DNA of 37,109 bases, taken from positions 1 to 37,109 of the IMG/VR virus record IMGVR_UViG_3300047353_000129; one strand, 5' to 3'. The translations under genes and the position numbers were made by a program. The notes below the pieces were generated by a model. The model was not told the origin of the DNA, ran no database searches, and worked only from the letters and a program-made list of their open reading frames with translations. Of this stretch, positions 2,987 to 23,979 are shown in pieces (the stretch's first letter is position 1; each line of letters begins with the position of its first letter). The stretch is from a virus.

Positions 2987-4125
2987 TAGATATCAGCCTC
3001 TGGTTTTTTAGGTCTTAGAGCTTTACTTAAACTACTGCGTTCTTGTACAGTTTCTCCAGCAATTTCGTTTGTATTTGTATTGTTAATAAATGTACCCTTT
3101 TGTGTAGTCTCTGTATTTGTGTTTGACAATGTCATTCTTACATCACCTTCAACTTTAATCCATCTTGTACCATCATATTGGAAAAGACGTTTTGGTAAAA
3201 AATCGGTTCTAAGGAAATAATCCCCGTCAACAGCATCAGTTGGAAATGATATGCCATGTCCAAATGTTGCTCCGTTTGGTGCATTCTCTTGACCTATTAG
3301 ATAACCTTGATAACCGGATCTAGACGGTTTTGCTTGTATCTCGCCGTCTGCATTGGTATTCTTAAGATCAACACTACCGTCTGCATTAGAATCTAAACTA
3401 TAATAATGTGCAACGTCAAAGCCTGACTTAGGAGCATCTGCTTCTGCTTGTGCTACTACAGCATCATTAATTTGCATTTCTTTTTCATATGTTGACAATA
3501 CATCTCTTAGTGTATCGCCACCTGGTGCATGTTCGTCTGCTGGTAGATCTAATATATCTTTGTATTCTTGTGAATCGTATATTTGCTTTAACTTTAATCT
3601 ATAAAGATGTGGATACCAAGTAGGTGAAAATCCTTCAGCGGCTCTGTTAATATCTTCAATAACATAGAAACGTTTAAGTGCTACAGTATAATCGTTAAGA
3701 GCATATTCATCTTTAAGGTGTGGTAATTCTATTACATCACCCGGCATTAACTTTCTGCCAATTGTTTCTACACTACTATTAATGTGTACTGTCATAAACA
3801 ATGTATCATTACTTAAGAATAGCCCAAATTGGCTTAAATCAAAGTCAATGTCTTGTACATTGTAAATACCTCTAATAGTATAGATATCGTCGTCATACTT
3901 GCGATCCCTATTTTCCATAAACAACATATCTTGTATGTTGGTTTCTTTAACAACATCGTAATGAGGTTGATCTGCTGTTGCATCCTCTTCTGATGTATTT
4001 TTAGGGCCGATATACTTATGAACAAATAAGTCAGTTCCTCCAACTGTAAACATTTCGAGGATCTGTTTATCTAAAAACTTGTAGTCTGCACCTTTTTCGG
4101 GTTTGTATAAACTTAATCTTGGCAT
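2986..4125 (-). CDS. gp14: gp14-like neck protein (379 aa)
   Basis: Matches the neck protein gp14 of marine T4-like phages: MPRLSLYKPEKGADY start, TADQPHYDVVKETNIQDML, and AEGFSPTWYPHLYRLKLKQI. In T4, gp13 and gp14 form the head-completion collar that receives the tail. The C-terminal third is an added segment with a strand motif GDYFLRTDF...LFQYDGTRW (Trp near residue 322). The ATG at 4125 is preferred over 4131 because the family begins with MPRL. It lies exactly 6 nt after the last A of a late-promoter motif on the minus strand, with no Shine-Dalgarno, so the message may be leaderless. In T4, genes 13-14-15 are co-directional; here gp13 is divergent. Confidence 0.88.
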   Translation of the reverse strand: MPRLSLYKPEKGADYKFLDKQILEMFTVGGTDLFVHKYIGPKNTSEEDATADQPHYDVVKETNIQDMLFMENRDRKYDDDIYTIRGIYNVQDIDFDLSQFGLFLSNDTLFMTVHINSSVETIGRKLMPGDVIELPHLKDEYALNDYTVALKRFYVIEDINRAAEGFSPTWYPHLYRLKLKQIYDSQEYKDILDLPADEHAPGGDTLRDVLSTYEKEMQINDAVVAQAEADAPKSGFDVAHYYSLDSNADGSVDLKNTNADGEIQAKPSRSGYQGYLIGQENAPNGATFGHGISFPTDAVDGDYFLRTDFLPKRLFQYDGTRWIKVEGDVRMTLSNTNTETTQKGTFINNTNTNEIAGETVQERSSLSKALRPKKPEADI

Positions 4126-4130
4126 AAACA

Positions 4131-4138
4131 TATTTATC
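4131..4138 (-). promoter_or_regulatory. Late promoter motif for gp14-gp15 operon
   Basis: Minus strand reads GATAAATA, close to the T4 late -10 element TATAAATA. The expected start of transcription 6 nt downstream coincides with the A of the gp14 ATG at 4125. Confidence 0.6.
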
Positions 4139-4155
4139 GTTATGTGCCGCCATAC

Positions 4156-4163
4156 GATAAATA
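4156..4163 (+). promoter_or_regulatory. Late promoter motif for gp13
   Basis: GATAAATA on the plus strand. With a start 6 nt downstream (about 4169), the mRNA would begin at GGAGA, which is itself the ribosome-binding site of gp13 (ATG at 4183). It forms an inverted repeat with the minus-strand motif at 4131-4138. Confidence 0.6.
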
Positions 4164-4182
4164 CTATTGGAGAAACAATTAT

Positions 4183-4941
4183 ATGACAGACTTAGCAACA
4201 CAAAAACAAGAAATTTTCGACTATGTTCACAGTATGTTAGGTGGTGGTATGGTCGATGTTGAACTTGACCCTGTTCATTATGAAACAGCGTTAACCAAAG
4301 CATTAACAACATATCGTCAAAGATCAGATAATGCTGTAGAAGAATCTTATATCTTCTTAGAATTAATACCTGATCAGAATGAATATACGTTAGCCAATGA
4401 GATTATGGAAGTAAGAAAATTATTCCGTAGAAGCATAGGTTCTCGTTCAGGTGGCGGTGACGGCGGAACATTGTTTGAACCGTTTAACATGGCATATACT
4501 AACACATACTTACTATCTAGTTCTAACATGGGCGGATTAGCAACTTATGATTTGTTTAGTCAATACCAAGAGTTAGTTGGTCGTATGTTTGGTTCTTTCA
4601 TTGAATTTAAATGGAACAGTACTACAAAGAAACTAACTATTCTCCAAAGACCAAGAGCAGACGAAGAAGTAATGATGTATTGTTACAACTATCGTCCAGA
4701 TTCAGAACTACTTAAAGACTATCTAGCAATCCAATGGATTAAAGATTATACACTTGCAAGTTGCAAATACATGCTCGGCGAAGCACGTAGTAAGTTTGCT
4801 ACTATAGCAGGTCCACAAGGTGGTTCAGCACTTAACGGTGAAACACTAAAAGCAGAAGCACAAGCCGAACTTGAAAAACTACAGAACGACGTATCATTAC
4901 AAGTCGGTGGTGGTGTCGGCTATGGTTTCACTATTGGCTAA
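4183..4941 (+). CDS. gp13: gp13-like neck protein (252 aa)
   Basis: Neck (head-completion) protein of the gp13 family: N-terminal helix MTDLATQKQEIFDYVHSMLGG, central LELIPDQNEYTL, and C-terminal DYLAIQWIKDYTLASCKYMLGEARSKF followed by a Gly-rich tail. With gp14 it forms the neck that closes the filled head and accepts the tail. The ATG at 4183 is preceded by TTGGAGA at proper distance; the upstream in-frame ATG at 4144 has no such site and lies within the promoter palindrome. A strong intrinsic terminator follows the stop by 15 nt, so gp13 appears monocistronic. Confidence 0.88.
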   Translation: MTDLATQKQEIFDYVHSMLGGGMVDVELDPVHYETALTKALTTYRQRSDNAVEESYIFLELIPDQNEYTLANEIMEVRKLFRRSIGSRSGGGDGGTLFEPFNMAYTNTYLLSSSNMGGLATYDLFSQYQELVGRMFGSFIEFKWNSTTKKLTILQRPRADEEVMMYCYNYRPDSELLKDYLAIQWIKDYTLASCKYMLGEARSKFATIAGPQGGSALNGETLKAEAQAELEKLQNDVSLQVGGGVGYGFTIG

Positions 4942-4955
4942 GCCGTCCCAAAAAG

Positions 4956-4973
4956 AAGCCTGCAGGCTTTTTT
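4956..4973 (+). terminator. Intrinsic terminator after gp13
   Basis: Perfect palindrome AAGCC-TGCA-GGCTT (5-bp stem, 4-nt loop) followed by TTTTTT, 15 nt after the gp13 stop codon. Confidence 0.8.
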
Positions 4974-4975
4974 AT

Positions 4976-5131
4976 ATGGTTAAAGGCCATCTTCCAAATG
5001 ACATGAAAACAATTTATGCCTGCTATGAAGGATACTTCAAACGGTTATGGAATAATAACGAAGGCTACACACACGAAGTAGGTTTTGAAGAGACCTATAA
5101 TCAATTTTTAAATAAAACTATTGACAAGTAG
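4976..5131 (+). CDS. Small hypothetical protein (51 aa)
   Basis: Short ORF beginning right after the gp13 terminator T-run: MVKGHLPNDMKTIYACYEGYF, then a basic/aromatic stretch and a Glu-rich C-terminus. No Shine-Dalgarno is seen before the ATG at 4976; a second in-frame ATG at 5003 is an alternative start giving 42 aa. The end overlaps the -35 box of the early promoter at 5121. Composition is protein-like (aromatics, alternating charge), but there is no family assignment. Confidence 0.45.
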   Translation: MVKGHLPNDMKTIYACYEGYFKRLWNNNEGYTHEVGFEETYNQFLNKTIDK

Positions 5132-5149
5132 CATAAAATACAGTATAAT
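5121..5149 (+). promoter_or_regulatory. Perfect sigma70-type (early) promoter
   Basis: TTGACA at 5121-5126, spacer of exactly 17 nt, TATAAT at 5144-5149: a full match to the bacterial housekeeping consensus. Transcription would start near 5156, about 20 nt before the kinase-like gene at 5177. This implies expression by unmodified host RNA polymerase in the middle of a late structural region. Confidence 0.85.
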
Positions 5150-5176
5150 TAATTTAATTAAAAAGGATTATACTTT

Positions 5177-5704
5177 ATGTTACCAAAACTCCTCGTAGTA
5201 GGGCACGGCCGACACGGCAAAGATACTGTTTGCGAAATGTTAGAAAAGTACAACTATTCATTTCAGTCATCATCAAAATTTTGTTCTGAACTTTTTATAT
5301 TCAATGATCTAAAAGACAAATACGGTTATGCCAATGAGGAAGAATGTTATGTAGATAGACATAACCATAGAGCAGAATGGTACGACATGATTCACGATTA
5401 TTGTAGTAAAGACCTAGCACGATTAGGTCGTAATCTATTTGCTGAAAATAGTATATACTGTGGACTAAGAAATAAACGTGAATTCTTTGCAATGCAAAAT
5501 GAAGAAATATTTGACTATGCTATTTGGGTAGACAGAGCAGATCATTTGCCTTTAGAAAGTTATAAGTCTATGAGCATTGAACAATGGATGTGTGATTATA
5601 CTATTGACAATAACGGTGACCTTGAGCGTTTAGAAAAAAATGTAGATGTACTGATTAAAACTATATTTAAAAATCGGGGATTAGATCACCTTGCTTCCAC
5701 TTAA
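5177..5704 (+). CDS. P-loop nucleotide kinase-like protein (dNMP kinase-like, 175 aa)
   Basis: N-terminal P-loop GHGRHGKDT at residues 9-17, preceded by strand KLLVV; the G-K-D-T ending is typical of deoxynucleoside monophosphate kinases such as T4 gp1 and of adenylate-kinase-fold proteins. The middle contains a region rich in charged and aromatic residues (probable lid/NMP-binding) and a DYAIWVDR strand. Such enzymes phosphorylate dNMPs to dNDPs for phage DNA synthesis. AAGGA precedes the ATG by about 10 nt. It is transcribed from the perfect sigma70-type promoter just upstream, fitting an early metabolic role. The 3' end overlaps the convergent HNH-type gene by 38 nt. P-loop kinase is sure; the substrate is not. 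Confidence 0.7.
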   Translation: MLPKLLVVGHGRHGKDTVCEMLEKYNYSFQSSSKFCSELFIFNDLKDKYGYANEEECYVDRHNHRAEWYDMIHDYCSKDLARLGRNLFAENSIYCGLRNKREFFAMQNEEIFDYAIWVDRADHLPLESYKSMSIEQWMCDYTIDNNGDLERLEKNVDVLIKTIFKNRGLDHLAST

Positions 5705-6056
5705 CTCCTTCTTTTTGTAGAGTTCGTTGACAATTAGCACAGATAGTTTTTAAGTTAGTAGGCCGGCAATTATTTAAATCTCCGTCTACATGAAACACAT
5801 TAAACTGTTCGTGATGTTTGCTCTGAAAGCCACATTTTTCGCATTTATCTTTTTTAACGTAACCCGACTGTCTCCATTTAGGAACTCCGATACTCTTTCC
5901 GCCTGTCCTTAAACATCGTTCACATCGTTTTCGATAATAGGTTTTATTACCTTTTTTGTAGTTAATAGCGGCAGGTCTTTGTCCGCAAACGCATAATGGT
6001 CTCATACTTGTATTTACCTCACCTTTTTGGTCCCTTTTTTGTGGTGTTTTCGCCAT
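5667..6056 (-). CDS. HNH-type zinc protein (possible endonuclease, 129 aa)
   Basis: Two pairs of zinc-type cysteines in the first half (C22-x-C24, C45-x2-C48) and an HNH-like core: C72-x2-C75, then FHVDGDLNNCR (His89, Asn95, Asn96), NLKT and C106-x2-C109. This is the beta-beta-alpha-metal arrangement of HNH nucleases. Two usual metal-ligand positions look changed: Phe precedes the catalytic-type His89, and Gln110 follows the last Cys where His is normal. It could be a free-standing homing-type endonuclease, or a nuclease-dead DNA-binding relative. It is antisense to its neighbours, starts just before the gp18 promoter, and overlaps the kinase gene tail to tail. Confidence 0.7.
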   Translation of the reverse strand: MAKTPQKRDQKGEVNTSMRPLCVCGQRPAAINYKKGNKTYYRKRCERCLRTGGKSIGVPKWRQSGYVKKDKCEKCGFQSKHHEQFNVFHVDGDLNNCRPTNLKTICANCQRTLQKEGVKWKQGDLIPDF

Positions 6057-6073
6057 TGTTTTTTTACTAAGAT

Positions 6074-6081
6074 GCTAAATA
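6074..6081 (+). promoter_or_regulatory. Late promoter motif for gp18
   Basis: GCTAAATA, followed by CTAG. Expected start near 6087, giving a 28-nt leader with AGGAG at 6104-6108 before the ATG at 6115. Confidence 0.5.
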
Positions 6082-6114
6082 CTAGTAACAACTTATACCT
6101 AATAGGAGAACAAA

Positions 6115-9100
6115 ATGGCATTAACATCACCAGGAGTACAGGTCAGCGTAATTGACGAGAGCTTTTACACACCAGCTGAACCAGGTACCGTACCAATGAT
6201 ATTCGTTGCTTCCGCCCAGGATAAACTGAATGGCGCAGGCACGGGGACAGCAGCAGGAACAACTAAGGCAAACGCAGGTAAGCCATACTTACTTACTTCG
6301 CAACGCGACCTTACTGAAACCTTTGGCGACCCAACTTTTATAACAGATTCTAATAACAATCCAGTACACGCAGGAGAACTTAACGAGTACGGATTACAAG
6401 CAGCTTATTCAATGCTTGGTGTTAGCAACAGAGCATATGTTGTTCGTGCAGACATCGACCTTAATGAATTAAAAGCATCAGCAACAGCACCAGCGGCTGC
6501 ACCAGCAGACGGAACAAGTTGGTTTGATACACAAACTTCAACTTTTGGTATATTTGAATGGAATTCAAATTCAGCTACTACAACAGGCGGACAAACTTTT
6601 AGTAATAAAGTTCCAACTGTTATCACTGATGTAACTAAACTAGTTGGCAATAGTGCAACTGGAAATCCAAAAACATCAGTTGGCCAAATTGGTGATTATG
6701 TAGTTGTTGCAACTACAACAGTAAATAAGTTGTTTTACAAAAATTCAAGCGGTGCATGGGTACAAGTTGGAAGTGCAGCTTGGAAAGGCAGTCACGCTAC
6801 AGTAAAAAGTTCTTCAGCTGTTGCTAGTGTTGCTTCAGGCGTAACAATGACAATTAACAGTGTTACTGTTACATCAAGCGGAACAGCGTTAACAGATGTA
6901 GTAAACGATATTAACGGTTTATCAATTGCAGGCGTTACAGCGGCAGTAGTAGATAGCCAATTAGAGCTTTATAATACAGGTGCTTCAACAGCAACTATTA
7001 TTATTGCAGAAGGAACAGGACTTGCAGACGATGTTAAGATTCCAGCAGGAACTTATGCAATTCCAGCATTAACAACTGCTCCACATACAAGCGTACCAGA
7101 GTATAAGTCAACTGATACAACTCCAAGACCATCAGGAAGTATTTGGTTTAAAACTACTGAACCTAATTTAGGTGCTCGTATTAGAGTTAAACAGTATGCT
7201 ACTGGAACTGGCACATGGACACAAGTTGGTGCTCCAATTTATGCTAATAACCAATCAGCATTATACGCACTAGACAAAAGCGGTGGCGGTGCTAACTTAG
7301 CAGCAGGTTCATTGTATGTACAAACTAACGTAGCTGAAGAATCAGTTAACTTAGCAACTTTTAAAATATTTGAAAGAGCAGCATCAGGTGCAACTGTTAT
7401 AACAAGTTCAGCTGTAGCAGCTCAACTTTCAGCACAGAGTTATGCTTTTGATATTCAAGAAACTTTAGCAAATAACGGTGCATTACAGTCAGCAAAAACT
7501 GTATCATTTACAGCAACAGGTGCTACAAGTGACGCAGATGTATTAGCAGGTGCTATTAACAGTGCAGGATTTACTAACATTGTTGCAACTGTTGACACTG
7601 CTAACAAAGTTTCAATTAAACACACATTAGGTGGAGACTTCCGTATTACTGATACAGGAGGTGCATTAGCACTTATTGGATATTCAGCTTATGTAGATGC
7701 AAATTCAGGAACACCTAATTTATATGCTGCTCCAGCAGGCGACACAGTAAATGATTTTGTTGCTTCAAACTGGAAAGTATTAGCATATACAGCAGGCGAA
7801 GATGCTCCAACAGCATTAACAGCAGATGGCACACTTTGGTACAATTCAATTGTAGACGAAGTTGACCTTATGATTCACAATGGTACTACTTGGGTAGGTT
7901 ACTTAGATTCAACAAGTCCGTTTTATGCGGCTACTGATGGTGACAAGACTGATCCAAATGGACCGCAAGTTTCAGCTTCTGAGCCAACATTACAGTCAGA
8001 CGGTACAGCACTTAAAAATGGAGACATTTGGGTCAGCACAGCAGACTTAGAAAACTATCCGTTAATTTACAAATATAACGGTTCTACATTAAAGTGGGTA
8101 TTACTAGATAAAGGCGATCAAACTACTGAAGACGGTGTACTATTTGGTGACGCTCGTTATAACACAGCAGGATCAAACAGTGCAGCAGCAGGTGAGATTA
8201 AAGACCTATTATCAAGCAACTTCTTAGACGCAGATGCTCCAGACCCAGCACTTTATCCAAAAGGAATGCTATTATGGAACACAAGACGTTCAGGATTTAA
8301 TGTTAAGAAATTTGTTAGAAACTATGTTGATACATCATTAGACAATGGACGTTTTGGTGATGAGTCAATGAGTTCTTACTACACACACCGTTGGGTAACT
8401 GAATCAGCTAACCAAGATGACGGTTCAGGTAGCTTTGGTGCTAAAGCACAACGTAAAGTTGTTGTACAAGCAATGCAAGCAATGGTTAACAGTAATGACG
8501 AAATTAGAGATGATGAGTCAAGAGTGTTTAACTTAATGGCAACTCCAGGATATCCAGAACTAATTGGAGAAATGATTTCACTAAACAATGATAGAGGCTT
8601 AACAGCATTTATTGTTGGTGATTCACCAGCTAAACTAAAATCCGACGCAACATCTTTAAACGAATGGGGTTCAAATGTTAACCTTGCTGTTGAAGATAAT
8701 GATGCAGGACTAGTAAGCAGAGATGAATACTTAGGTGTATTTTATCCATGGGGCTTCTCAAGCGATAACGCAGGTAACAACGTAGTTGTTCCACCAAGTC
8801 ATATGATGCTAAGAACACTTGCATTAAGTGACCAAGTTAGTTATCCTTGGTTTGCACCAGCAGGTACAAGACGTGGTGGTATTACTAACGCTTCAGCAAC
8901 AGGATACATTGATGCAGAAGGCGAATTTGTAAGTGTAGCGTTGAACGAAGGACAACGTGATACACTTTATAGTTTAAGTATTAACCCAATTACGTTTATT
9001 ACAGGTGCAGGTCTTGTTAACTTTGGTCAAAAGACTCGTGCAAGAGGTGCAAGTTCTTTAGATAGAATTAACGTTGCTAGACTTGTAATATTCTTACGTA

Positions 9101-10130: not shown

Positions 10131-10138
10131 GATAAATA
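10131..10138 (+). promoter_or_regulatory. Late promoter motif, leaderless type
   Basis: GATAAATA whose last A is 6 nt before the A of the ATG at 10144; no Shine-Dalgarno between. Confidence 0.6.
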
Positions 10139-10143
10139 TTAGT

Positions 10144-11538
10144 ATGAGCAAGTTTGGCGGATTTCTAGATAATTTAGTAAGTGGGGCTTTAAACCCTAAA
10201 GGTGACATGGCGGACTACCGTCATGCTTCTCGACTATACACAGATGATAACTTTAGGTTAGCACCTAAAACTAAGTTTCTGTATCATGTTTCATTTAATT
10301 TAAATGAAGAAGTAATTAAAAAGGTTCGTCCTAACTTTGATAAAAAGCATGGCTTAGAAGTTAACATGCTAGTCAAAACAGCAGACTTACCAAAGTATAA
10401 TGTTACAACAGAAACTAAAAACAAATACAATCGTAAGAAAAATTTACAAGTTAGATTAGACTATGATCCTATTAACATTACATTTCACGATGACAATATG
10501 GGTCTTACAACATACCTTTGGGAATCGTATTATAGATATTATTTTGTAGACGGCAACTTAGGAAGTTTAGATGCTGCAGGTAAACCTAATCAAACATCAA
10601 CAGGGTTTATGCCACATAACACATATGAAGGCAAAGCACTAAATGCATTTAGATACGGATTTGATAATAATTCGTATGCACCGTTCTTTAATAGTATTCA
10701 AATAAGCCAAATGGCTAGACATCAATATGTAACATATACATTAGTTAATCCTATTATTAGTAGTTTCCAACATGATACAATGGATCAGTCCGCAGGTGGC
10801 GAAACTTCACAAAATACAATGCAAATATTATATGAATCAGTATTCTATAGTACAGGTGCTGTTGAAGAAGGTAATGCTCCTGTAGGATTTGGTACAGAAC
10901 ATTATGATACATCTCCAAGTCCAATTAGTATTGCAGGCGGCGGAGCTGCTAGTCTACTTGGCGCAGGCGGAGTATTAGCAGGTGGCGCAAGTGTGTTTAG
11001 TGATCTTAGTAGCGGTAATGTTGGATTAGGAACATTAATCAAAGCAACAAATACAATTAAAAATGCTAAAAAATTAACTAAAGAAGGTGTACGTAACGAA
11101 GGATACAGTGTATTAGGTAAATCATTAACAGCGGCAACTGGAGCAAATGTAAGCGGATTAGCAAATTCTAGTTTTCCAAAGAGTGGTGGAACAGGACAGA
11201 ATAACGCTACAGAAGCAATACCGTTAGTAACATCTAAAGAAAATAAACAGTTATCTAATGTAGAAATACAAAATGAATTAGAGGACACACCAATCTTAAA
11301 AGATGCTGTAGCAAAACAATTAGTTGCTACCGGAGTAGTAGCATCAACAGTAGCAGGGCTTTCAGTGGGTAATGCAGTTGGACTAAGTGTTTACGAAACA
11401 TTAACAGTTCAAGAGAAAAATGCAATCAAAGAAGAAGTTGACGAAAAAATTGCTGAGGGAGATCCTAAGGTTCTTTCTGTTAGTAATAAAATAGTATCTT
11501 CTTATAGAGAATCACAAGGAATAATATCTAATGTCTAG
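10144..11538 (+). CDS. Tail-tube-like / baseplate structural protein (464 aa)
   Basis: The first ~240 residues have a tube-protein look: FRLAPKTKFLYHVSFNL, VKTADLPKYNVTTETKNKYNRKKNLQ, DPINITFHDDN, YYRYYFVDG, then NPIISSFQHDTMDQS...MQILYESVFYST, a layout shared with gp19 and the baseplate tube initiator gp54. The C-terminal ~200 residues are Gly/Ala/Ser-rich, with hydrophobic stretches near 260-290 and 385-410. T4 gp54 (320 aa) and gp48 are the nearest functional ideas; family membership is an inference. It is not the portal gp20, whose motifs are absent. The ATG lies 6 nt after a late motif with no Shine-Dalgarno. The next gene overlaps its end by 8 nt. Confidence 0.65.
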   Translation: MSKFGGFLDNLVSGALNPKGDMADYRHASRLYTDDNFRLAPKTKFLYHVSFNLNEEVIKKVRPNFDKKHGLEVNMLVKTADLPKYNVTTETKNKYNRKKNLQVRLDYDPINITFHDDNMGLTTYLWESYYRYYFVDGNLGSLDAAGKPNQTSTGFMPHNTYEGKALNAFRYGFDNNSYAPFFNSIQISQMARHQYVTYTLVNPIISSFQHDTMDQSAGGETSQNTMQILYESVFYSTGAVEEGNAPVGFGTEHYDTSPSPISIAGGGAASLLGAGGVLAGGASVFSDLSSGNVGLGTLIKATNTIKNAKKLTKEGVRNEGYSVLGKSLTAATGANVSGLANSSFPKSGGTGQNNATEAIPLVTSKENKQLSNVEIQNELEDTPILKDAVAKQLVATGVVASTVAGLSVGNAVGLSVYETLTVQEKNAIKEEVDEKIAEGDPKVLSVSNKIVSSYRESQGIISNV

Positions 11539-14293: not shown

Positions 14294-14321
14294 AAATAGG
14301 CTCTTAGGAGCCTATTTTTTT
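14294..14321 (+). terminator. Strong intrinsic terminator
   Basis: Perfect 10-bp stem AAATAGGCTC / GAGCCTATTT with loop TTAG, followed by T run; 27 nt after the stop at 14267. Confidence 0.9.
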
Positions 14322-14322
14322 C

Positions 14323-14330
14323 TGTAAATA
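14323..14330 (+). promoter_or_regulatory. Late promoter motif, leaderless type
   Basis: TGTAAATA directly after the terminator; its last A is 6 nt before the A of the ATG at 14336, with no Shine-Dalgarno. Confidence 0.5.
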
Positions 14331-14335
14331 CTTTT

Positions 14336-14674
14336 ATGACAGATTGGACCAAGTATTTTGAACACATAAAGCCTGTGTGCCCGTGGAGCGGAGCGGCATG
14401 GAAAAAGGGCGAAATAAAAGTAAGATACTGGAACGGTGAAATAGAAGAACTAGATAATAATCAAGCCATCATATATATTTGTAAAGGATATAATCGTAGG
14501 CGTCTTAAAAAACTTTGTAAAAAAGTTGATGTAAGCGAGAAGTATGAATGGTTATGGAGCGAACCTACACACGGTGATTATGCTTCTCCAGTTCCTATAC
14601 TAATACAACAAGACAAACGCAAACTGTTTGATTTAAGATTCGATACAGGCTACTATGACGATATAATTGGTTAA
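14336..14674 (+). CDS. Hypothetical protein (112 aa)
   Basis: Not recognised. Trp/Tyr-rich small basic protein: MTDWTKYFEHIKPVCPWSGAAW, a strand KGEIKVRYWNGE, a helix RRRLKKLCKKV, then YEWLWSEPTHGDY and PVPILIQQDKRKLFDLRFDTGY. Looks like a compact alpha/beta domain. It sits between a terminator and gp17 with its own late motif. No other ATG is near, so the start is well fixed although there is no Shine-Dalgarno. Its stop TAA is part of the next late motif. Confidence 0.7.
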   Translation: MTDWTKYFEHIKPVCPWSGAAWKKGEIKVRYWNGEIEELDNNQAIIYICKGYNRRRLKKLCKKVDVSEKYEWLWSEPTHGDYASPVPILIQQDKRKLFDLRFDTGYYDDIIG

Positions 14675-14677
14675 ATA
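14670..14677 (+). promoter_or_regulatory. Late promoter motif for gp17, leaderless type
   Basis: GTTAAATA overlapping the upstream stop codon; the last A is 6 nt before the gp17 ATG at 14683 and no Shine-Dalgarno is present. The overlap with TAA makes a chance match more likely here than at other sites. Confidence 0.45.
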
Positions 14678-14682
14678 CTACT

Positions 14683-16263
14683 ATGAGTAAGAGTTTAGAT
14701 GGTGTCCTCACCAAAAAAGCAAATCAAAAAGAAACGTTCAACGAAGAACAGATACAAGACCTGCAGGCATGCATGGACCCTGATGATGGGTATATGTACT
14801 TTGCACGTAAGTTTGCGTACATACAGCATCCTGTAAAAGGTAAACTTTTATTTGATCCTTACGAATATCAACTTCGCTTAATGGATTCATATCATAGTTA
14901 TAGATTTAATATTAATATGATGCCAAGACAAACAGGTAAGACTACTTGTGCGGCTATCTATCTTGCATGGTATGCAATGTTTGTACCTGATCAGACTATA
15001 CTAATTGCGGCACACAAATATACAGGTGCTCAAGAGATTATGGCACGTATACGTTACATATATGAAACGTGCGAAGATCACATACGTGCAGGTGTTACCT
15101 CATACAACAAAGGCTCAATTGAATTTGAAAACGGTAGTAGAATTGTAAGCCAAACAACTACTGGAAATACTGGACGTGGTATGTCCATATCATTACTATA
15201 CTGTGACGAGTTTGCATTTGTGCAACCTAATATTGCAGAAGAATTTTGGACTTCAATATCACCTACACTAGCAACAGGTGGTCGTGCTATTATTACAAGT
15301 ACACCAAATAGTGATGAAGATACATTTGCTACTATTTGGAAACAAGCAGAAGATAAATTTGATTCACACGGTAACGAACAAGATGTAGGCATAAACGGCT
15401 TTCATAGTTTTGTTGCAGAATGGCAAGAACATCCAGATAGAGACGAAGAATGGAAAGAAGCAGAAATTGGACGTATTGGCGAAGAAAAGTTTAGACGTGA
15501 ATACGGCTGTGAATTCTTAGTATTTGATGAAACACTTATTAACAGTATATACTTGGCAAACATGGAAGGTCAAAGTCCAATACTAAACATGGGTCAAACA
15601 CGATGGTACAGTAAGCCATCACCAGATTTTACATATGCAGTTGCACTTGATCCTAGTATGGGTACAGGTGGCGACAATGCAGCTATTGAAGTATATGAAC
15701 TACCAAGTTATAAACAAGTAGCAGAATGGCAACATAATCAAACAGCAATACCTGGGCAAATTAGAGTACTTGCTGATATTTGTAAGTACATAGAAACTGA
15801 AACAGGAAATACTAATGGCATTTACTGGTCTGTAGAAAATAATGGTATAGGTGAAGCTGCATTACTAGTTATTAACGACTTCGGGGAAGAAAACATACCG
15901 GGGTTATTTGTAAGTGAACCTATGCGTAAAGGTCATGTACGTAAGTTTAGAAAAGGATTTAACACTACACATGGTACAAAGATTACTGCATGTAGTAGGC
16001 TAAAAACTATGGTAGAAGGTGAAAAGATGTCTGTATCTAGTAAACCTCTTATATCAGAACTTAAAAATTATATTGCATCAGGGTCAAGTTATCAGGCAAA
16101 ACCCGGAGCATCAGATGACTTAATAAGTGCAACACTTTTAGCAATTAGAATGATGGCTGTACTAAAAGACTGGGATCCAAGAATATATAACACATTTAAC
16201 CAAGCAGAAGACCATGAAGATTACGAACCGCCAATGCCAATCTTCATTAGCTCAAACTATTAA
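14683..16263 (+). CDS. gp17: gp17-like terminase large subunit (526 aa)
   Basis: DNA-packaging motor with ATPase and nuclease domains. Seen: Walker A PRQTGKTT (81-88), Walker B LLYCDEFAF (Asp175-Glu176), the coupling-type STPNS (206-210), and a RNase H-like nuclease with Asp323 (VALDPSMGTGGD), Glu385 (WSVENNG) and Asp478/479 (GASDDLISA). T4 gp17 is 610 aa; this is a somewhat shorter full-length version. It pumps DNA into the prohead at the portal vertex, with gp16 as partner. The portal itself is not in this window. Late motif 6 nt upstream, no Shine-Dalgarno. Confidence 0.95.
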   Translation: MSKSLDGVLTKKANQKETFNEEQIQDLQACMDPDDGYMYFARKFAYIQHPVKGKLLFDPYEYQLRLMDSYHSYRFNINMMPRQTGKTTCAAIYLAWYAMFVPDQTILIAAHKYTGAQEIMARIRYIYETCEDHIRAGVTSYNKGSIEFENGSRIVSQTTTGNTGRGMSISLLYCDEFAFVQPNIAEEFWTSISPTLATGGRAIITSTPNSDEDTFATIWKQAEDKFDSHGNEQDVGINGFHSFVAEWQEHPDRDEEWKEAEIGRIGEEKFRREYGCEFLVFDETLINSIYLANMEGQSPILNMGQTRWYSKPSPDFTYAVALDPSMGTGGDNAAIEVYELPSYKQVAEWQHNQTAIPGQIRVLADICKYIETETGNTNGIYWSVENNGIGEAALLVINDFGEENIPGLFVSEPMRKGHVRKFRKGFNTTHGTKITACSRLKTMVEGEKMSVSSKPLISELKNYIASGSSYQAKPGASDDLISATLLAIRMMAVLKDWDPRIYNTFNQAEDHEDYEPPMPIFISSNY

Positions 16264-16269: not shown

Positions 16270-16277
16270 GATAAATA
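16270..16277 (+). promoter_or_regulatory. Late promoter motif, leaderless type
   Basis: GATAAATA; last A is 5 nt before the A of the ATG at 16282; no Shine-Dalgarno between. Confidence 0.55.
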
Positions 16278-16281: not shown

Positions 16282-18249
16282 ATGCAAACATTAAATATAG
16301 TAGCCAAAGAATTATTTAATAAAATAAGAGGACGCTTTCCAAGTGTTACTATTGGCGATGGTGAAGGTAATGTAACTACAACACCTGAACAGGCAAGATT
16401 TTATGACTTTGATTTTATATCTGAAGGCAGAGCTGTAGGAAAAGTATCCATTAGTTTAGAAGATAAAGCAGTATCAGTAGTATATAATCAAGGACTAGTT
16501 ACTAACGAAGATAGTATTACTAAAGAAAGTTGGTATAATTTTTTAAAGGAATTAAGGCAATTTGCAAAAAAGCGTATGCTGAACTTTGATACCAGAGATA
16601 TTAATAAATCAAACTTAAATAGAAGAGATTACAAATTTTTAGCAAATAACCGTATAGAGGAAAAAACAATGAGCGAAGGAAAACTTTACGGTACAAGTAG
16701 ATTAAGTTATCAAGACTTTGATGGCGCAAGGCTTGTATTACGTCATAGCCAGGCAGTTAACCAAGAAAGAGCTGCAGGTAGAACACAGAATGTTGAAAGC
16801 ATCTACATAGAAAGTGCTGAAGGAGAAAGATTCAAGTATCCATACAAGCATATCAATGGTGCTAGAGCAATGGCAAGACACGTTGCTGAAGGCGGTAATG
16901 CTTATGATGATTTTGGTAAACATATTGTAGGACTAAGTGAAGAACTATCTAAGTTAAAGAAATTTAAAAATTACATGGGTCGCTCAAATGTAATGGCTGA
17001 AAGTTTAGCTGGATATGTTGATGTTGTTAAAGAACGTTTATCAACAGTTAAAAAGACAATCGAAAGTTTACAAAAGAAAGCATACTATACAGAAGCATTT
17101 GAAAACTTTGAACAAACTGAAGTAACAGAAGTACCACAAGATGTTGCAGAAAATTGGATTGATGAATTAACTATCCGTCAGTTTAACGAAGAACTTAAAG
17201 ATGTATTCCCATACATTTATAGTTTAGTAAGTGAAAATACTCGTGCAAAAGAATTAGGTCCAACAGACTTAGAAGGCTATGTTGTATACGAAGGCAAAGT
17301 AAGAGACGAGTTACAAGATAACTTTGATGAGCTATGTGCAATGAAAGAAAAAGGCGCAAGTGATAAAGAATTAAAAGCCGCTGCTGATAAGATGGCATTT
17401 GGCGGACAAGCACTTGAAGCATGTTTATCAGGTGCAGATAATCCGTTTGGTAGTGACGATCATATGGAGCCAGACTTTGAATCACAATTAGAAAACGGCT
17501 TTGAAGAAATGATGGGTCAGTTTGGTGAAGCAGAAATGAAGTGGAAGCAAACTAGTATGTCACCAGAAGAAGCTGTAGCAAAGTACGGCAAAGAACACGT
17601 AAAAGTTAAAAAAGGCGGACTTAACAACGGTGACGATATGGTATCAGTACATGTTGCAGATGAAAGTTTTGACCCACAGTCAGAGCCAAGCAAGCAAGAT
17701 ATGATGGCAGACGAGTTTATGACAGCATATGAAAAAGGTGGTGAACCAGCACTAGCAACAGCAATGGGCATAAGCGATCAAGAACTTGATCAAGAAATTA
17801 CCGAGTACGGTATGGAACACGGCTTACATGCTGATGACGATAGAGATGATATTATCCAAGGTGTTATTGAACAAATGATCGATAATATGGACGAAGGTAA
17901 TGCATACGCACACGCTGTGAAGAAAGCAAAAGACAGTGGCAAGAAAAAGGGCGATGAAATTGATGGTCCAGATGGCGAAAAGATCAAGTTAGAAAAAGAA
18001 GAACAAAAGACACCATTAGGCGAGTTCATACTAAGTTACTTTGATAGAGAAACTGGACAGTTTCCAAAAGGCGAAACAGCAGTATTAACAATGGTAGAAA
18101 AAGATTACGGTGAAAACTACATTACACCTGCAAAACAATTTATTGAAGCAATTAATAATAAAGTAGCAGAAGTAATGGGCTACAAAGAACAAGAAGACGA
18201 AATACAATCACCTGAACTAAGCAGAATTAGAGACTTAGCAGGACTTTAG
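16282..18249 (+). CDS. Large conserved phage protein, probably virion-associated (655 aa)
   Basis: Function unknown. The N-terminal ~115 residues form an alpha/beta domain (MQTLNIVAKELFNKIRGRF, YDFDFISEGRAVGKVSISL, WYNFLKELRQFAKKRMLNFDTRDI). The next block begins with KLYGTSRLSYQDFDGARLVLRH and has SIYIESAEGERFKYPYKHINGARAMARHVAEGG, a pattern I associate with marine T4-like phages. The rest is Glu/Asp/Met-rich with long helices and probably disordered acidic segments. Rare Cys, no Walker or catalytic motif. Placed between gp17 and gp32 at the end of the late block. A weak AT-rich hairpin follows the stop. Confidence 0.8.
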   Translation: MQTLNIVAKELFNKIRGRFPSVTIGDGEGNVTTTPEQARFYDFDFISEGRAVGKVSISLEDKAVSVVYNQGLVTNEDSITKESWYNFLKELRQFAKKRMLNFDTRDINKSNLNRRDYKFLANNRIEEKTMSEGKLYGTSRLSYQDFDGARLVLRHSQAVNQERAAGRTQNVESIYIESAEGERFKYPYKHINGARAMARHVAEGGNAYDDFGKHIVGLSEELSKLKKFKNYMGRSNVMAESLAGYVDVVKERLSTVKKTIESLQKKAYYTEAFENFEQTEVTEVPQDVAENWIDELTIRQFNEELKDVFPYIYSLVSENTRAKELGPTDLEGYVVYEGKVRDELQDNFDELCAMKEKGASDKELKAAADKMAFGGQALEACLSGADNPFGSDDHMEPDFESQLENGFEEMMGQFGEAEMKWKQTSMSPEEAVAKYGKEHVKVKKGGLNNGDDMVSVHVADESFDPQSEPSKQDMMADEFMTAYEKGGEPALATAMGISDQELDQEITEYGMEHGLHADDDRDDIIQGVIEQMIDNMDEGNAYAHAVKKAKDSGKKKGDEIDGPDGEKIKLEKEEQKTPLGEFILSYFDRETGQFPKGETAVLTMVEKDYGENYITPAKQFIEAINNKVAEVMGYKEQEDEIQSPELSRIRDLAGL

Positions 18250-18345: not shown

Positions 18346-18393
18346 TTAACTAGGCACATAAAACCATATAAGGCATATAGGAGGCATTAAATT

Positions 18394-19380: not shown

Positions 19381-19386
19381 CAAACA

Positions 19387-19458: not shown

Positions 19459-19479
19459 AACTTTAATATAGGAGATACA

Positions 19480-20559
19480 ATGGCTAAATCATTTGACGTA
19501 AGTAAATTTAGAAAAGACTTAACTAAGTCTATTCAAGGTATGAGTAGCGGCTTTAACGATCCAACAGATTGGGTAAGCACTGGCTCATATGCACTAAACT
19601 ATCTTATTAGTGGCGACTTTAATAAAGGTGTTCCGCTAGGTAAGGTAACAGTGTTTGCAGGAGAGTCTGGCGCAGGTAAAAGTTATTTTGCGGCAGGTAA
19701 TATTGTAAGACACGCACAAGAACAAGGCATTTATGTAGTTTTAATTGACTCAGAAAATGCACTTGACCAAGCATGGTTAGAAGCACTAGGTGTTGATTGT
19801 GATGAGTCGAAATTACTTAAATTAAGTATGAGTATGATCGACGATGTTGCAAAAACTATTTCAACATTTATGATAGACTACAAAGCAATGGATGAGGACG
19901 ATCGTCCTAAAGTATTGTTTGTAATTGACTCACTAGGTATGCTACTAACACCAACCGATGTTGATCAGTTTAACAAGGGTGACATGAAAGGTGATATGGG
20001 TCGTAAGCCTAAAGCACTAACAGCACTTGTTAGAAATACTGTTAACATGATCGGCGCACATAACGTAGGTTTAGTTTGTACTAATCACACTTATGCATCG
20101 CAGGATATGTTTGATCCAGATGATAAAATAAGTGGCGGACAGGGCTTTATATACGCTTCTAGTATTGTTGTAGCAATGAAGAAGTTAAAGCTCAAAGAAG
20201 ATGCAGATGGTAACAAGATCAGTCAAGTTATGGGTATCCGTGCTGGCTGTAAAGTAATGAAAACACGTTATGCAAAACCGTTCGAAGGCGTACAAGTTAA
20301 GATTCCATACGAAACAGGTATGAATCCTTATAGTGGCGTTGTTGAACTTTTTGAAGCAAAAGGTGTTATCGAAAAGCAAGGTAACAGATTAAAATATGTT
20401 ACTATGGATGGAGAAGAGATTCTCGAATATCGTAAAAATTGGAATGGCGATTTATTAGACAAAGTTATGTCTGATCACATCACTCAAGAAGCTTCTGTGG
20501 TAAATACCTCGAAAGAGGAAGATGTAGATCTACCAGAAGAAGTATTAACTGAGGAGTAA
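19480..20559 (+). CDS. uvsX: UvsX RecA-like recombinase (359 aa)
   Basis: Strand-exchange ATPase of the RecA/UvsX family. Seen: Walker A GESGAGKS (61-68), LIDSENALD (88-96) with the catalytic-type acidic residue region, Walker B KVLFVIDSLGML (Asp150), loop region DMKGDMGRKPKAL, and CTNHTYASQDMFDPDDKISGGQG. T4 UvsX is 391 aa; this is full length for marine relatives. It acts on gp32-coated ssDNA with UvsY as loader; all three genes are adjacent here. AGGAG upstream. The acidic C-terminal tail (SKEEDVDLPEEVLTEE) is typical. Preceded by a structured leader. Confidence 0.95.
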   Translation: MAKSFDVSKFRKDLTKSIQGMSSGFNDPTDWVSTGSYALNYLISGDFNKGVPLGKVTVFAGESGAGKSYFAAGNIVRHAQEQGIYVVLIDSENALDQAWLEALGVDCDESKLLKLSMSMIDDVAKTISTFMIDYKAMDEDDRPKVLFVIDSLGMLLTPTDVDQFNKGDMKGDMGRKPKALTALVRNTVNMIGAHNVGLVCTNHTYASQDMFDPDDKISGGQGFIYASSIVVAMKKLKLKEDADGNKISQVMGIRAGCKVMKTRYAKPFEGVQVKIPYETGMNPYSGVVELFEAKGVIEKQGNRLKYVTMDGEEILEYRKNWNGDLLDKVMSDHITQEASVVNTSKEEDVDLPEEVLTEE

Positions 20560-20561
20560 AT

Positions 20562-20807
20562 ATGAGCCACGGATTTGATGACGAAGCAGTAATTGCAGAA
20601 GTTTGGACAGTGTTCAAAGAGTACCTTGACAAGAAAAGTGTTGATCAAGCAGCAGAAAGGTTTGTTGATTTATTAGCAGACTATGGTGTTGGTGACGATA
20701 CTTTAGCTCAAGCAATGGGTACGGATTCTGAACTAGACACAGCAATTAACTACTATCTCGATATAGAAGAGTCAGACATCCTAGACGAAGAAGAAGACTG
20801 GGGTTAG
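20562..20807 (+). CDS. Small acidic protein between uvsX and uvsY (81 aa)
   Basis: Strongly acidic, helical protein: VWTVFKEYLDKKSVDQAAERFVDLLADYGVGDDTLAQAM then DTAINYYLDIEESDILDEEEDWG. Two nt after uvsX, with GAGGAG from the uvsX 3' end as Shine-Dalgarno, and 1 nt before uvsY. No catalytic motif. Function unknown to me; similar small acidic proteins accompany recombination genes in T4-like marine phages. Tight packing suggests a partner of UvsX/UvsY or gp32, or a DNA mimic, which is inference only. Confidence 0.75.
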   Translation: MSHGFDDEAVIAEVWTVFKEYLDKKSVDQAAERFVDLLADYGVGDDTLAQAMGTDSELDTAINYYLDIEESDILDEEEDWG

Positions 20808-20808
20808 T

Positions 20809-21264
20809 ATGGGTTGGTATAGCGAAGTATCAAGAGACATTAACAAGATTCCTGACGCTGTAGCGTTTTTTGAAAAAGAATTAAACGAGGCCAAAACTGA
20901 AGTTAAGTTATATGGCAACGTTGAAAAAGCAGCATCAGAAATGCCAGGTATTGTTGAACATCGTTTTAACCAACTTCAAGAAATTGAAGCCATACTAAAC
21001 TATCTTAATATTGAACTACGCAGATTGCGTAGTTCTTTTTTCAAAAAATATCTTGAAAATTATCAACGAGCTCTGTCTAGCCGTGACGTTGAAAAATACG
21101 TAGACGGTGAGGCAGACGTTGTTGACTACGAAAAAATTATTAATGAGTTTGCACTTATGCGTAACAAATGGTTAGGTTTACTTAAAGGACTTGATCAAAA
21201 ACAATGGCAGATTACTAATGTTGTTAAACTACGTGTAGCAGGCATGGAAGACGCAAGCCTTTAA
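20809..21264 (+). CDS. uvsY: UvsY recombination mediator (151 aa)
   Basis: UvsY loads UvsX on gp32-coated ssDNA as a multimeric ring. Seen: a long helical protein with EKAASEMPGIVEHRFNQLQEIEAIL, LRRLRSSFFKKYLENYQRALSSRDVEKYVDGEADVVD and a C-terminal LMRNKWLGLLKGLDQKQWQITNVVKLRVAGMED. Size is close to T4 UvsY (137 aa). It lies directly after uvsX and the acidic protein. A perfect terminator-like hairpin with a T6 run lies inside its coding sequence (21013-21041). The Shine-Dalgarno is weak; translation is probably coupled to the upstream gene (1-nt gap). Confidence 0.85.
   Translation: MGWYSEVSRDINKIPDAVAFFEKELNEAKTEVKLYGNVEKAASEMPGIVEHRFNQLQEIEAILNYLNIELRRLRSSFFKKYLENYQRALSSRDVEKYVDGEADVVDYEKIINEFALMRNKWLGLLKGLDQKQWQITNVVKLRVAGMEDASL
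21013..21041 (+). terminator. Terminator-like hairpin inside uvsY
   Basis: Perfect 9-bp stem GAACTACGC / GCGTAGTTC with a 5-nt AGATT loop followed at once by TTTTTT, all within the uvsY reading frame (codons for LRRLRSSFF). By its shape it is one of the best intrinsic terminators in the window. Confidence 0.6.
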
Positions 21265-21287
21265 TATTCTCTTACATAATCCTGGTT

Positions 21288-21295
21288 GGTAAATA
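21288..21295 (+). promoter_or_regulatory. Late promoter motif before FkbM-type methyltransferase
   Basis: GGTAAATA; expected start near 21301, with AGGAG at 21309-21313 in a 19-nt leader before the ATG at 21320. Confidence 0.45.
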
Positions 21296-21319
21296 TACAT
21301 AATACACTAGGAGATCTTA

Positions 21320-21973
21320 ATGTTCGACGAATTCCAAAATTGGACTGTTCTAAAAGGTGACAGAACCTTAAAAAGAGCAATCCGAGCTCAAGGAACCGAA
21401 AACGTACTACAATATCAAAAAGAACAACTTGATATAGCATTAAGTTTTTGTGAAAACATGCGTCACGGAATTGACATTGGTGCAAATTATGGACTTATGT
21501 CTTACAACATGTCGCCATATTTTGAACAAGTATCTTCTTTTGAAATAGTTCCTGAACTGAACAAATGTTTCAAACAAAATATGCAAAAGTTTGATATTCG
21601 AAATGTTAATATATATAATTGCGGTTTAGGTGATAAAGAAAAAGAAGTAGCAATAGACTTTGACCCTCTAAGCACATTTAGAACACATGTTGATAAAGAT
21701 ACAAAAGGTTCTATTAAAATAAAAACATTAGACAGTTACAATTTTGGAAATGTGGACTTTATTAAAATGGATGTTGAAGGATACGAGCCTTTAGTTGTTA
21801 AGGGCGGAATAAAAACAATTGAAAAATTTAAACCTGTTATACTATACGAACAAAAAGGCCACGCTGAAAGATTTGGTTATAGAAAAAATATTGTTATGGA
21901 ACTGCTTAGAGATCTCAAATATAGAAAACTAGCAAACGTAGGATCTAAAAATGCACTAATAGGTGTTATATAA
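21320..21973 (+). CDS. FkbM-family methyltransferase (217 aa)
   Basis: SAM-dependent methyltransferase with Rossmann motifs in order: IDIGANYG (51-58, SAM loop), SFEIVPE (73-79, acidic SAM-ribose contact) and FIKMDVEGYEPLVVKGG (147-163), the FkbM signature. Family members O-methylate sugars or small hydroxylated compounds and are common in surface-glycan clusters. First gene of the glycan island, with its own late motif and AGGAG. A second FkbM protein (22540-23160) lies two genes on. The acceptor is unknown; a hexose of an envelope or virion glycan is plausible from neighbours. Confidence 0.87.
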   Translation: MFDEFQNWTVLKGDRTLKRAIRAQGTENVLQYQKEQLDIALSFCENMRHGIDIGANYGLMSYNMSPYFEQVSSFEIVPELNKCFKQNMQKFDIRNVNIYNCGLGDKEKEVAIDFDPLSTFRTHVDKDTKGSIKIKTLDSYNFGNVDFIKMDVEGYEPLVVKGGIKTIEKFKPVILYEQKGHAERFGYRKNIVMELLRDLKYRKLANVGSKNALIGVI

Positions 21974-21988
21974 TGAAATGGAGATTGA

Positions 21989-22543
21989 ATGGCACATTCT
22001 AATGAATATGTTGAAGAACTAAAAATACTACACAATAAAAAAACTTTTGGAGTAACTAAAGGAATACCTTTAGTAGTTAATAAGTTAATTGAAGAAAAAA
22101 ATATAAAAAGTTTTCTAGACTTTGGTGCCGGTAAAGGCGGCACTAGCGAATACATTAGAAATCAATATCCTAATGTTCTTTTACATACATTTGATCCTGC
22201 AACATTTCCAAATCCTTTACCTGAAGAAGTTGAATTAACTTATAGTAGTGATGTGCTAGAGCATGTTGAAGAACATCTAATTGACGAAACATTACAAGAC
22301 CTATGTAAGCGTTCTACTAGATATCAATATCATTTAATAGCATGTCATCCTGCAAAGAAAACATTAAGCGACGGACGTAATGCACATCTAATTATTGAAA
22401 AACCTAAATGGTGGAAACGTAAGATACAAGCAATATCTGATTGGAAAATTATACACGAAGACATAATGGATCATGTTGCACAACCAAAAAAAGGTCCACC
22501 TATTAATGTTGTAAAATATATTGTAATAATGGAAAAGTTATGA
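21989..22543 (+). CDS. Class I SAM methyltransferase, copy A (184 aa)
   Basis: Motif I FLDFGAGKGGTSEYI (42-56), a DPATF acidic strand end, SSDVLEHVEEH (86-96, the methyltransferase-11/23 type DVLEH motif), then TLSDGRNAHLIIEKP-x-WW (125-142). The same order and the unusual SDGRNAHLIIE...WW block appear in the gene at 31941-32468, so the two are paralogs. GGAG precedes the ATG at 21989, and the gene overlaps the next by 4 nt (ATGA). Acceptor unknown; position between two FkbM methyltransferases points to glycan modification. Confidence 0.8.
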   Translation: MAHSNEYVEELKILHNKKTFGVTKGIPLVVNKLIEEKNIKSFLDFGAGKGGTSEYIRNQYPNVLLHTFDPATFPNPLPEEVELTYSSDVLEHVEEHLIDETLQDLCKRSTRYQYHLIACHPAKKTLSDGRNAHLIIEKPKWWKRKIQAISDWKIIHEDIMDHVAQPKKGPPINVVKYIVIMEKL

Positions 22544-23160
22544 AGCAAGTATTTGAATACTGGATGCCGTCAACTGACGACCATTTTGAAAGACTGATTA
22601 AGAAAAGAGTTCGTCGAGGTGGCCCTCCTGAATATCAAGATGATGTAAGAGAAGCAGCTTATCAACATGTTACTGACTTTAATGTGTGTTTAGATATTGG
22701 AGCAAACGTTGGTCTTTGGGCTAAACCCTTAACTAGAAAATTTAATAAAGTTATTGCATTTGAACCTTTAGAACAAGTATATTCTTGTTTAGAAAAAAAC
22801 ACAGAAGGATTAAATGTTGAAATACATAAGTGTGCATTAGGTAATAAAAATTCAACTATTGATATGAAGTATGACAGTCATAATACTGGTGCTAGTCATG
22901 TTATCGAAGGAGAAGGATCTATTAATGTTCGACGTCTAGACGATATTGATTTACCAAAGTTCGGGCTAGTTAAGATTGACTGTGAGCGTTATGAACTTGA
23001 AATACTTAAAGGTGCAATAGACACTTTATTAAAATATAAGCCAATTGTAGTTTGTGAGCAACACCCAGATACAAATTATTGTGCAGGTAAATTCTTAAAA
23101 GACCACGGTGCCATTGAGCTTACCAATGTAAGAAAGGATTACGTATTTGGTTGGGAATAA
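22540..23160 (+). CDS. FkbM-family methyltransferase, second copy (206 aa)
   Basis: FkbM layout: LDIGANVGLW (51-60), IAFEPLEQ (72-79), and LVKIDCERYELEILKGA (143-159). In the last motif Arg150 replaces the usual Gly of DVEGYE, and Cys replaces Val, so the active-site edge is unusual. The 4-nt overlap with the upstream methyltransferase implies coupled translation. It is diverged from the FkbM copy at 21320: shared motifs, little identity elsewhere. Probably methylates a different sugar position or acceptor; this is inference. Confidence 0.83.
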   Translation: MKQVFEYWMPSTDDHFERLIKKRVRRGGPPEYQDDVREAAYQHVTDFNVCLDIGANVGLWAKPLTRKFNKVIAFEPLEQVYSCLEKNTEGLNVEIHKCALGNKNSTIDMKYDSHNTGASHVIEGEGSINVRRLDDIDLPKFGLVKIDCERYELEILKGAIDTLLKYKPIVVCEQHPDTNYCAGKFLKDHGAIELTNVRKDYVFGWE

Positions 23161-23192
23161 CACCATAATATAGTTCCTGCCATTAAGTACGC

Positions 23193-23200
23193 ACTAAATA
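23193..23200 (+). promoter_or_regulatory. Late promoter motif, leaderless type
   Basis: ACTAAATA, last A 6 nt before the A of the ATG at 23206. The start is fixed by the conserved N-terminus, and no Shine-Dalgarno is present. Confidence 0.5.
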
Positions 23201-23205
23201 CTAGC

Positions 23206-23979
23206 ATGGAACGCATCGTATTAGTAACAGGCGGCTTTGATCCGCTTCACTCCGGACATATTGCTTATTTTAAAGAAGCAAAAAAATTAGGAACAAAACT
23301 AATTGTAGGAGTTAACTCAGACGAATGGTTAACTCGAAAGAAAGGCAGACCTTTTATGTCTTTCGAAGAACGCATTTCTATCATCAAAGAACTATCCATT
23401 GTTGATAAAGTAATTGGATTTAATGACAGCGACGATACTGCTTGTCATGCAATCTTCCACACGTTAAGTACACACGGTAGTGGAACTAAAGTAATCTTTG
23501 CTAACGGCGGAGATAGAACTAACGATAATATCCCAGAAATGAAAACATACGGCGACATGCCTTATGTAGATTTTGTATTTGGTGTCGGTGGCACTGACAA
23601 GCAAAATAGTAGTAGTTGGATATTAGACGAATGGAAACAACCTAAAACAGATAGGAATTGGGGGTACTATAGAGTGTTACATGAAAATGGAAAAGAAGTA
23701 AAAGTAAAAGAATTAACAGTTGATCCAGGACAAAAATTATCTATGCAACGGCATCAACACAGGAGTGAACATTGGTTTGTTAGTACAGGTACAGCAACCG
23801 TTTACACTTTAGATACATCAACTGATGTAGATTTATATGGAACATATAGAACACATGAGAGCTTACATATACCGCAAGGCATGTGGCATCAGTTAGCAAA
23901 TGAAACAACAGAACCGTTAACACTAGTTGAAATACAGTATGGTACTGAATGCGTGGAGGAAGACATTGAGCGAAGATAA
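23206..23979 (+). CDS. Cytidylyltransferase-cupin fusion (257 aa)
   Basis: Residues 1-~140: nucleotidyltransferase of the glycerol-3-phosphate cytidylyltransferase / HldE-C type, with GGFDPLHSGH (His15-x2-His18), GVNSDEW and ANGGDRTND. These join CTP or ATP to a sugar or polyol phosphate. Residues ~150-257: a cupin like the C-terminal isomerase domain of type II mannose-6-phosphate isomerases: NWGYYRVL, DPGQKLSMQRHQHRSEHWFV (His183, His185, Glu188), HIPQGMWHQLAN (His228) and LVEIQYGTECVEEDIER. So one protein may isomerise and activate a sugar. I do not know this domain pair as standard. Late motif 6 nt before ATG, no Shine-Dalgarno. It overlaps the next gene's start by 14 nt. Confidence 0.85.
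   Translation: MERIVLVTGGFDPLHSGHIAYFKEAKKLGTKLIVGVNSDEWLTRKKGRPFMSFEERISIIKELSIVDKVIGFNDSDDTACHAIFHTLSTHGSGTKVIFANGGDRTNDNIPEMKTYGDMPYVDFVFGVGGTDKQNSSSWILDEWKQPKTDRNWGYYRVLHENGKEVKVKELTVDPGQKLSMQRHQHRSEHWFVSTGTATVYTLDTSTDVDLYGTYRTHESLHIPQGMWHQLANETTEPLTLVEIQYGTECVEEDIERR

Follow-up and report, generated by a model that had tools for sequence, protein, structure and literature searches.

Start codons at a fixed distance from late promoter boxes suggest leaderless late mRNAs in an uncultured clade of T4-like phages

Why should several late genes of a T4-like phage carry a late promoter box immediately before the start codon, in the place usually taken by a Shine-Dalgarno (SD) sequence, and how would such genes be translated? 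The question is raised by the IMG/VR virus record IMGVR_UViG_3300047353_000129, analysed here over its entire 37,109 bp (hereafter, the window), a fragment of a T4-type late/structural region with genes for gp14, gp13, the sheath, the tube, a second tube-like protein, head closure, gp17, a gp32-like single-stranded DNA-binding protein and UvsY. An earlier note on this DNA had proposed that six of its genes give leaderless late mRNAs. The sequence evidence supports that interpretation, and it is very likely that these genes, together with counterparts in related phages, are expressed as leaderless mRNAs from T4-type (gp55) late promoters.

What sets these genes apart is the spacing k, understood as the number of nucleotides between TAAATA and an ATG heading a reading frame of 70 codons or more. 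TAAATA is rarer in the window than expected from shuffles (42 vs 67 occurrences); six genes have k=5 and one has k=4, none falls at 6-18, and a second group lies at 19-33. A uniform distribution would give 0.14 genes per spacing, against the six seen at k=5 (P ~1e-8), and other arrangements of the same letters (composition-matched permuted hexamers) give no such peak in the spacing count. Chance is rejected on both grounds and the fixed spacing is real, bearing out the claim that the signal lies in the spacing and not in single hits. The seven ATGs are at 4125 and 6005 on the minus strand and at 10144, 14336, 14683, 16282 and 23206 on the plus strand, only 16282 having k=4. All six motifs of the earlier note are among them (five with a 5-nt spacer, that of 16282 with a 4-nt one), and the TAAATA at 6011-6016 (minus strand), 5 nt before ATG 6005, adds a seventh. 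The TAAATA core is found at all seven, in a TATAAATA-like box in which the two bases before the core vary, with a preference for GA, and it often occurs as GATAAATA. The genes behind these near boxes are of late or virion type (terminase, tube-like, head/virion proteins). The contrasting genes of the window, with the box 19-33 nt upstream, are gp13 (ATG 4183), gp18, gp19, 12368, 12880, 21320, 27472 and 26585 (minus strand), among them all five SD genes (gp13, gp18, gp19, 12880, 21320) for which a more distant motif had already been pointed out. Given that the box occupies the SD position, the missing SD of the near class is partly built in, and the informative signal is the two-class distance distribution with its conservation, rather than SD absence.

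That conservation was followed in about 160 IMG/VR contigs, comprising a gp17-bearing set (n=80, 80-100% identity) and a gp14 set obtained by a separate scan; SD sites were called by a simple 4-mer match assuming a standard anti-SD, and the starts in the window are predicted ones. Comparison of gp17 assigns the window to an uncultured clade; the cultured phages closest to it are jumbo phages of the PA5oct type (53% identity). In the 80 gp17-bearing relatives there are 160 ATGs at k=5, 81 at k=4 and 20 at k=7, with few at 6 and 8-16 and a broad class at 17-35. Kinship among the contigs means that loci cannot be counted as independent trials; what carries the argument is the consistent behaviour of each of several gene families. 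In gp14, k=5 is kept in 78 of 79 orthologues, TAAATA being invariant across 41 distinct upstream sequences. Neighbouring late genes combine a TAAATA 16-41 nt upstream with an SD, which is found in all orthologues of gp18 (32/32) and gp19 (46/46), the box being far upstream in most or all of them. The divergent gp13 has its late box at 4158..4163 (plus strand, k=19), an SD in 79 of 79 orthologues and k=16-25, so the promoters of gp14 and gp13 occupy one short intergenic stretch with opposite start layouts. Upstream of gp13 (window 4158-4183, contigs L191-L270) GGAG begins about 6 nt after the box, and the SD would consequently sit at the extreme 5' end of the mRNA, in a leader of about 11-15 nt.

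Where would transcription start? The T4 late box spans positions -13 to -6, in promoters that depend on gp55, gp33 and gp45 (PMC2988020), which places the A of the ATG at +1 when k=5; the argument of the earlier note, that T4 late transcription starts about 6 nt past the box and the AUG would thus be the 5' end, agrees with this. The base before the ATG is a pyrimidine in all 233 near-class genes of the clade vs 228 of 437 SD genes, as expected for an initiation site with a pyrimidine at -1 and a purine at +1, and the start codons at k=4/5 in clade genomes comprise 56 ATG, 2 GTG and no TTG. The SD-led genes gp13, gp18, gp19 and 12368, where the ATG cannot bias the count, tend to have a pyrimidine at +5 and a purine at +6 after the box, and in 12880 the step is displaced by a single base, as in the k=4 class. 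A gp55-family late sigma (phrog_234; E 1e-22 to 1e-25) is encoded in all the longer relatives tested (G001-G004). We infer the start of transcription from T4 and from this -1 pyrimidine/+1 purine pattern. TAAATA would then make up the core of a late promoter of the T4 type, recognised by the host RNA polymerase with the phage gp55-family sigma, and the start codon of the near class, 4-5 nt (occasionally 7) past the box, would fall at +1. The mRNA would begin at the AUG or at most about 3 nt from it; with the start codon at the expected RNA start, these messages probably lack a leader for ribosomes to land on, and ribosomes would need no SD to recognise the AUG at the 5' terminus, a leaderless mode of translation that we likewise infer. 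In the second class the same promoter type, its box being 16-41 nt upstream, would give a short leader that contains an SD.

Natural variants point the same way. TAAATA at k=4/5 is missing from 14 gp17 copies. Seven of them show TAAGTA at about that position (by eye at k=5 in six or all); the other seven have no box next to the start, and the 4-mer test finds an SD in five of these. At several gp17 loci without the adjacent box, a different gene occupies the box-5nt-ATG position just upstream (clusters 8, 13, 15, 16, 17). In contig L045, the 10144 gene has AAGGAGAGTTCG inserted between box-plus-spacer and ATG, and this insert carries an SD; judged from its sequence, it is an SD-led version of the predicted leaderless layout. 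Terminator hairpins often end a few nucleotides before the box, and the resulting terminator-box-ATG module recurs in relatives: a pattern scan of IMG/VR for a terminator tail followed by the box gave at least 72 distinct stretches and, among the 72 matches listed, k is 4/5 in 49, 7 in four, 6 in one and 15-26 in 15, while three have no open reading frame (ORF). The -1 pyrimidine, these modules and the SD in most of the gp17 copies that have no box beside the start all fit leaderless mRNAs. The stretch upstream of gp17 (window 14294-14683; L018, L033, L045, L049, L055, L065) is also a variable-gene site, at which unrelated genes are exchanged behind the same terminator-box-5nt-ATG module.

How far does this layout extend? 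The longer relatives are G001 (357 kb, the record of contig L073), G002 (201 kb), G003 (155 kb) and G004, the last three being partial. They have 17, 9, 7 and 3 genes at k=5, respectively, vs 0.3-0.75 expected per spacing (0.4-0.75 for the first three), and k=6-15 is nearly empty in G001-G003; the genome-wide check suggested in the earlier note thus finds the peak persisting. In two divergent gene pairs of G001, 190499(-)/190543(+) and 194355(-)/194395(+), the box lies 4-5 nt before the ATG of both genes, which are predicted to be leaderless back to back. A general T4-like trait is rejected, as k=5 is not significantly enriched in T4, S-PM2, PA5oct or P-SSM2 (the four k=5 hits of P-SSM2 do not resemble late genes at conserved starts), and no excess is apparent in RaK2 and Phosso. 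A general trait of alphaproteobacterial phages is likewise rejected, Cr30 and phiM12 being without such sites; the three sites of KVP40 (Vibrio) are at background level. PA5oct proteins are of no help in fixing starts, for the N-terminus of the gene taken as gp14 does not align. In the TerL tree, the window groups with PA5oct, Phosso and RaK2, and T4, the cyanophages and the pelagiphage HTVC008M fall elsewhere; the branches are long, so only this broad split is used. In HTVC008M (a SAR11 phage, NC_020484, which falls on the side of the cyanophages), k=5 is found at 12 of the 198 starts annotated in RefSeq, many belonging to virion genes, and SD-like sites precede 2 of its 13 k=4/5 genes vs 113 of the 185 others. 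Its sites include 6280, 18943, 19456, 31132, 49760, 75830, 18916(-) and 16007(-), often as TAAATAG. The k=5 start of its gp2 is retained in Mosig and Melnitz at ~39% protein identity and that of gp3 in Mosig, the gp3 start of Melnitz not being at k=5; HTVC008M shows a clear peak, Mosig a modest one (P 2e-4) and Melnitz a weak one (P 0.01). The layout would therefore be present in two separated T4-like lineages, by either convergence or retention with losses.

Could a box in this position mean something other than a leaderless message? It might be a real late promoter tightly placed for compaction, while most of the protein would come from longer read-through transcripts, by initiation that is SD-independent or coupled. 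Several near-class genes do follow co-directional late genes, 16282 being close behind the gp17 stop; however, gp14 is divergent from gp13 and has no further same-strand TAAATA within 1.5 kb upstream, many boxes come directly after a terminator, and compaction alone gives no reason for a spacing of exactly 4-5 nt and an empty 6-15 range, all of which makes this account unlikely. Considerably less probable is that the start-adjacent TAAATA acts in translation, as an AU-rich enhancer or as a UAA stop for reinitiation, and is no promoter. Its location at the usual SD place and the use of one box TAA as the stop of 14336 would suit such a role, whereas the occurrence of the same box 16-41 nt upstream in SD-led genes and its match to the T4 late box would not, and for gp14 the stop/reinitiation signal is rejected because this divergent gene has no upstream co-directional gene to terminate. 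Least credible of all is that the wrong start codons have been assigned and that translation truly starts further downstream, behind ordinary leaders. Phage gene starts are indeed often misannotated, and a second Met lies two codons ahead of the gp14 start, at 4131, where the longest gp14 ORF begins; nevertheless, the 4125 Met is retained in relatives, again 5 nt behind the box (78/79), conservation of the protein sequence begins at the Met in question in gp14, gp17 and 23206 (for the last, as had been claimed), and the starts of HTVC008M were annotated independently.

Leaderless late mRNAs remain the reading that we prefer, although several observations count against it. The earlier note had described its six genes as devoid of an SD, which is upheld across the orthologues of gp14 (0/79), gp17 (0/67), 16282 (1/61) and 23206 (0/23) but not throughout those of 10144, where SD-like purines stand beside the box in 13 of 46; in the 6005 orthologues they adjoin it in 12 of 27. 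In a larger set of gp13 promoters, the pyrimidine/purine step is present in only 22 of 36 distinct ones, which makes it support and not proof, and the existence of variants with k=4 and k=7 points to a start site that is somewhat flexible. Moreover, the 16282 start lies less than 20 nt from the gp17 stop, so that coupling could add to its translation.

As for the individual loci, the predicted leaderless gp14-like gene (2986..4125, minus strand; virion structural protein, phrog_11591) has its late box at 4131..4136, 5 nt before the ATG. On the same strand, a small gene beginning MRPLC (5667..6005) encodes a cysteine-rich protein with no match in PHROG or Pfam; it is predicted to be leaderless, with k=4/5 in 27 of 28 orthologues and a less certain start, ATG 6005 being an in-frame Met inside ORF 5667-6056. 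The plus strand carries the second tube-like gene (10144..11538), predicted to be leaderless behind a box at 10133..10138 (5 nt; k=4/5 in 46/47). An intrinsic terminator hairpin (14294..14317) ends 7 nt before the box (14325..14330) that lies 5 nt ahead of a small, putatively leaderless gene of unknown function (14336..14674; k=5 in 7/9). The TAA of the next box (14672..14677) doubles as the stop of that gene and precedes by 5 nt the ATG of gp17, the terminase large subunit (14683..16263; k=4/5 in 67/81), predicted to be leaderless as well. The box at 16272..16277 lies 4 nt before a virion structural gene (16282..18249) that would be leaderless or have a 0-3 nt leader; k is 4/5 in 61 of 76 orthologues and 7 in 14 (relatives L017, L030, L038 and others), where the ATG comes with one extra codon and the predicted leader is 2-3 nt. 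Finally, the box at 23195..23200 lies 5 nt before a nucleotidyltransferase-like gene (23206..23979, phrog_7878; k=4/5 in 23/25), predicted leaderless, whose start is fixed by the conserved N-terminus.

Other features of the window lie apart from these boxes. S-adenosylmethionine synthetase (metK), a DAHP/KDO8P-synthase-family enzyme and a KdsB-like cytidylyltransferase are encoded consecutively at 32744-35759, and the metK product is closest to alphaproteobacterial proteins (50-57%), a weak hint of the host. A perfect sigma-70 match (TTGACA-17-TATAAT, 5121-5149) upstream of a kinase-like gene at 5177 is probably an early promoter within the late region, and the UvsY-like gene (20809-21264) contains a strong terminator-like hairpin with a T-run at 21013-21035.

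Why would AUG-initial mRNAs be favoured? One conceivable, if doubtful, answer is that several T4-like lineages use leaderless late translation as a strategy of the late phase, in which ribosomes altered by infection (e.g., by a phage bS21) favour them, a set of virion genes being free of SD-anti-SD pairing and competing with host mRNA. bS21 is present in G001 and HTVC008M, also in PA5oct, which has no peak, and was not found in the partial G002-G004, so it is not diagnostic; a phage-encoded IF3 was not found in six genomes. T4 late promoters and leaderless mRNAs are each textbook matter, and the new element is their combination, of which no report was found in the open-access literature, most subscription papers lying outside that search. 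If true, late box plus start codon would be a compact expression module in aquatic phages, SAR11 phages included; it would explain the lack of a ribosome-binding site at these genes and fix their start codons, and gp14/gp13 would offer a natural leaderless/leadered pair for asking when leaderless translation is favoured. The layout may also help late-promoter prediction in pelagimyophages, reported as unsuccessful in one study (PMC7029224).

How does this compare with known systems? T4 late promoters share with the clade the TAAATA core and the expected distance to +1, and clade relatives encode a gp55-family sigma; unlike the clade, T4 itself has no excess of ATG at +1, and GA-like bases are favoured at -13/-12 in the clade vs TA in T4. 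Among phage messages, that of lambda cI from PRM is known to be leaderless and to start with its AUG, although it serves a single repressor gene under a sigma-70 promoter and not a set of virion genes. The same late box is found in marine T4-like phages, the cyanophage late promoters of S-PM2 and Syn9 being NATAAATA (PMC2984593), whereas S-PM2 and P-SSM2 lack a significant k=5 excess and gp2, at k=5 in the pelagiphage, is SD-led in S-PM2. Leaders of 26-491 nt have been described in AR9 (PMC5312081). The closest precedent for leaderless late phage mRNAs is the Thermus phage phiYS40, in which a set of middle/late mRNAs is leaderless, IF2 rises and IF3 falls (PMC3594737); although its promoter context is unrelated, its host is thermophilic and its promoters are not of the T4 late type, its leaderless messages, like those predicted for the clade, serve a whole set of phage genes and not a single one.

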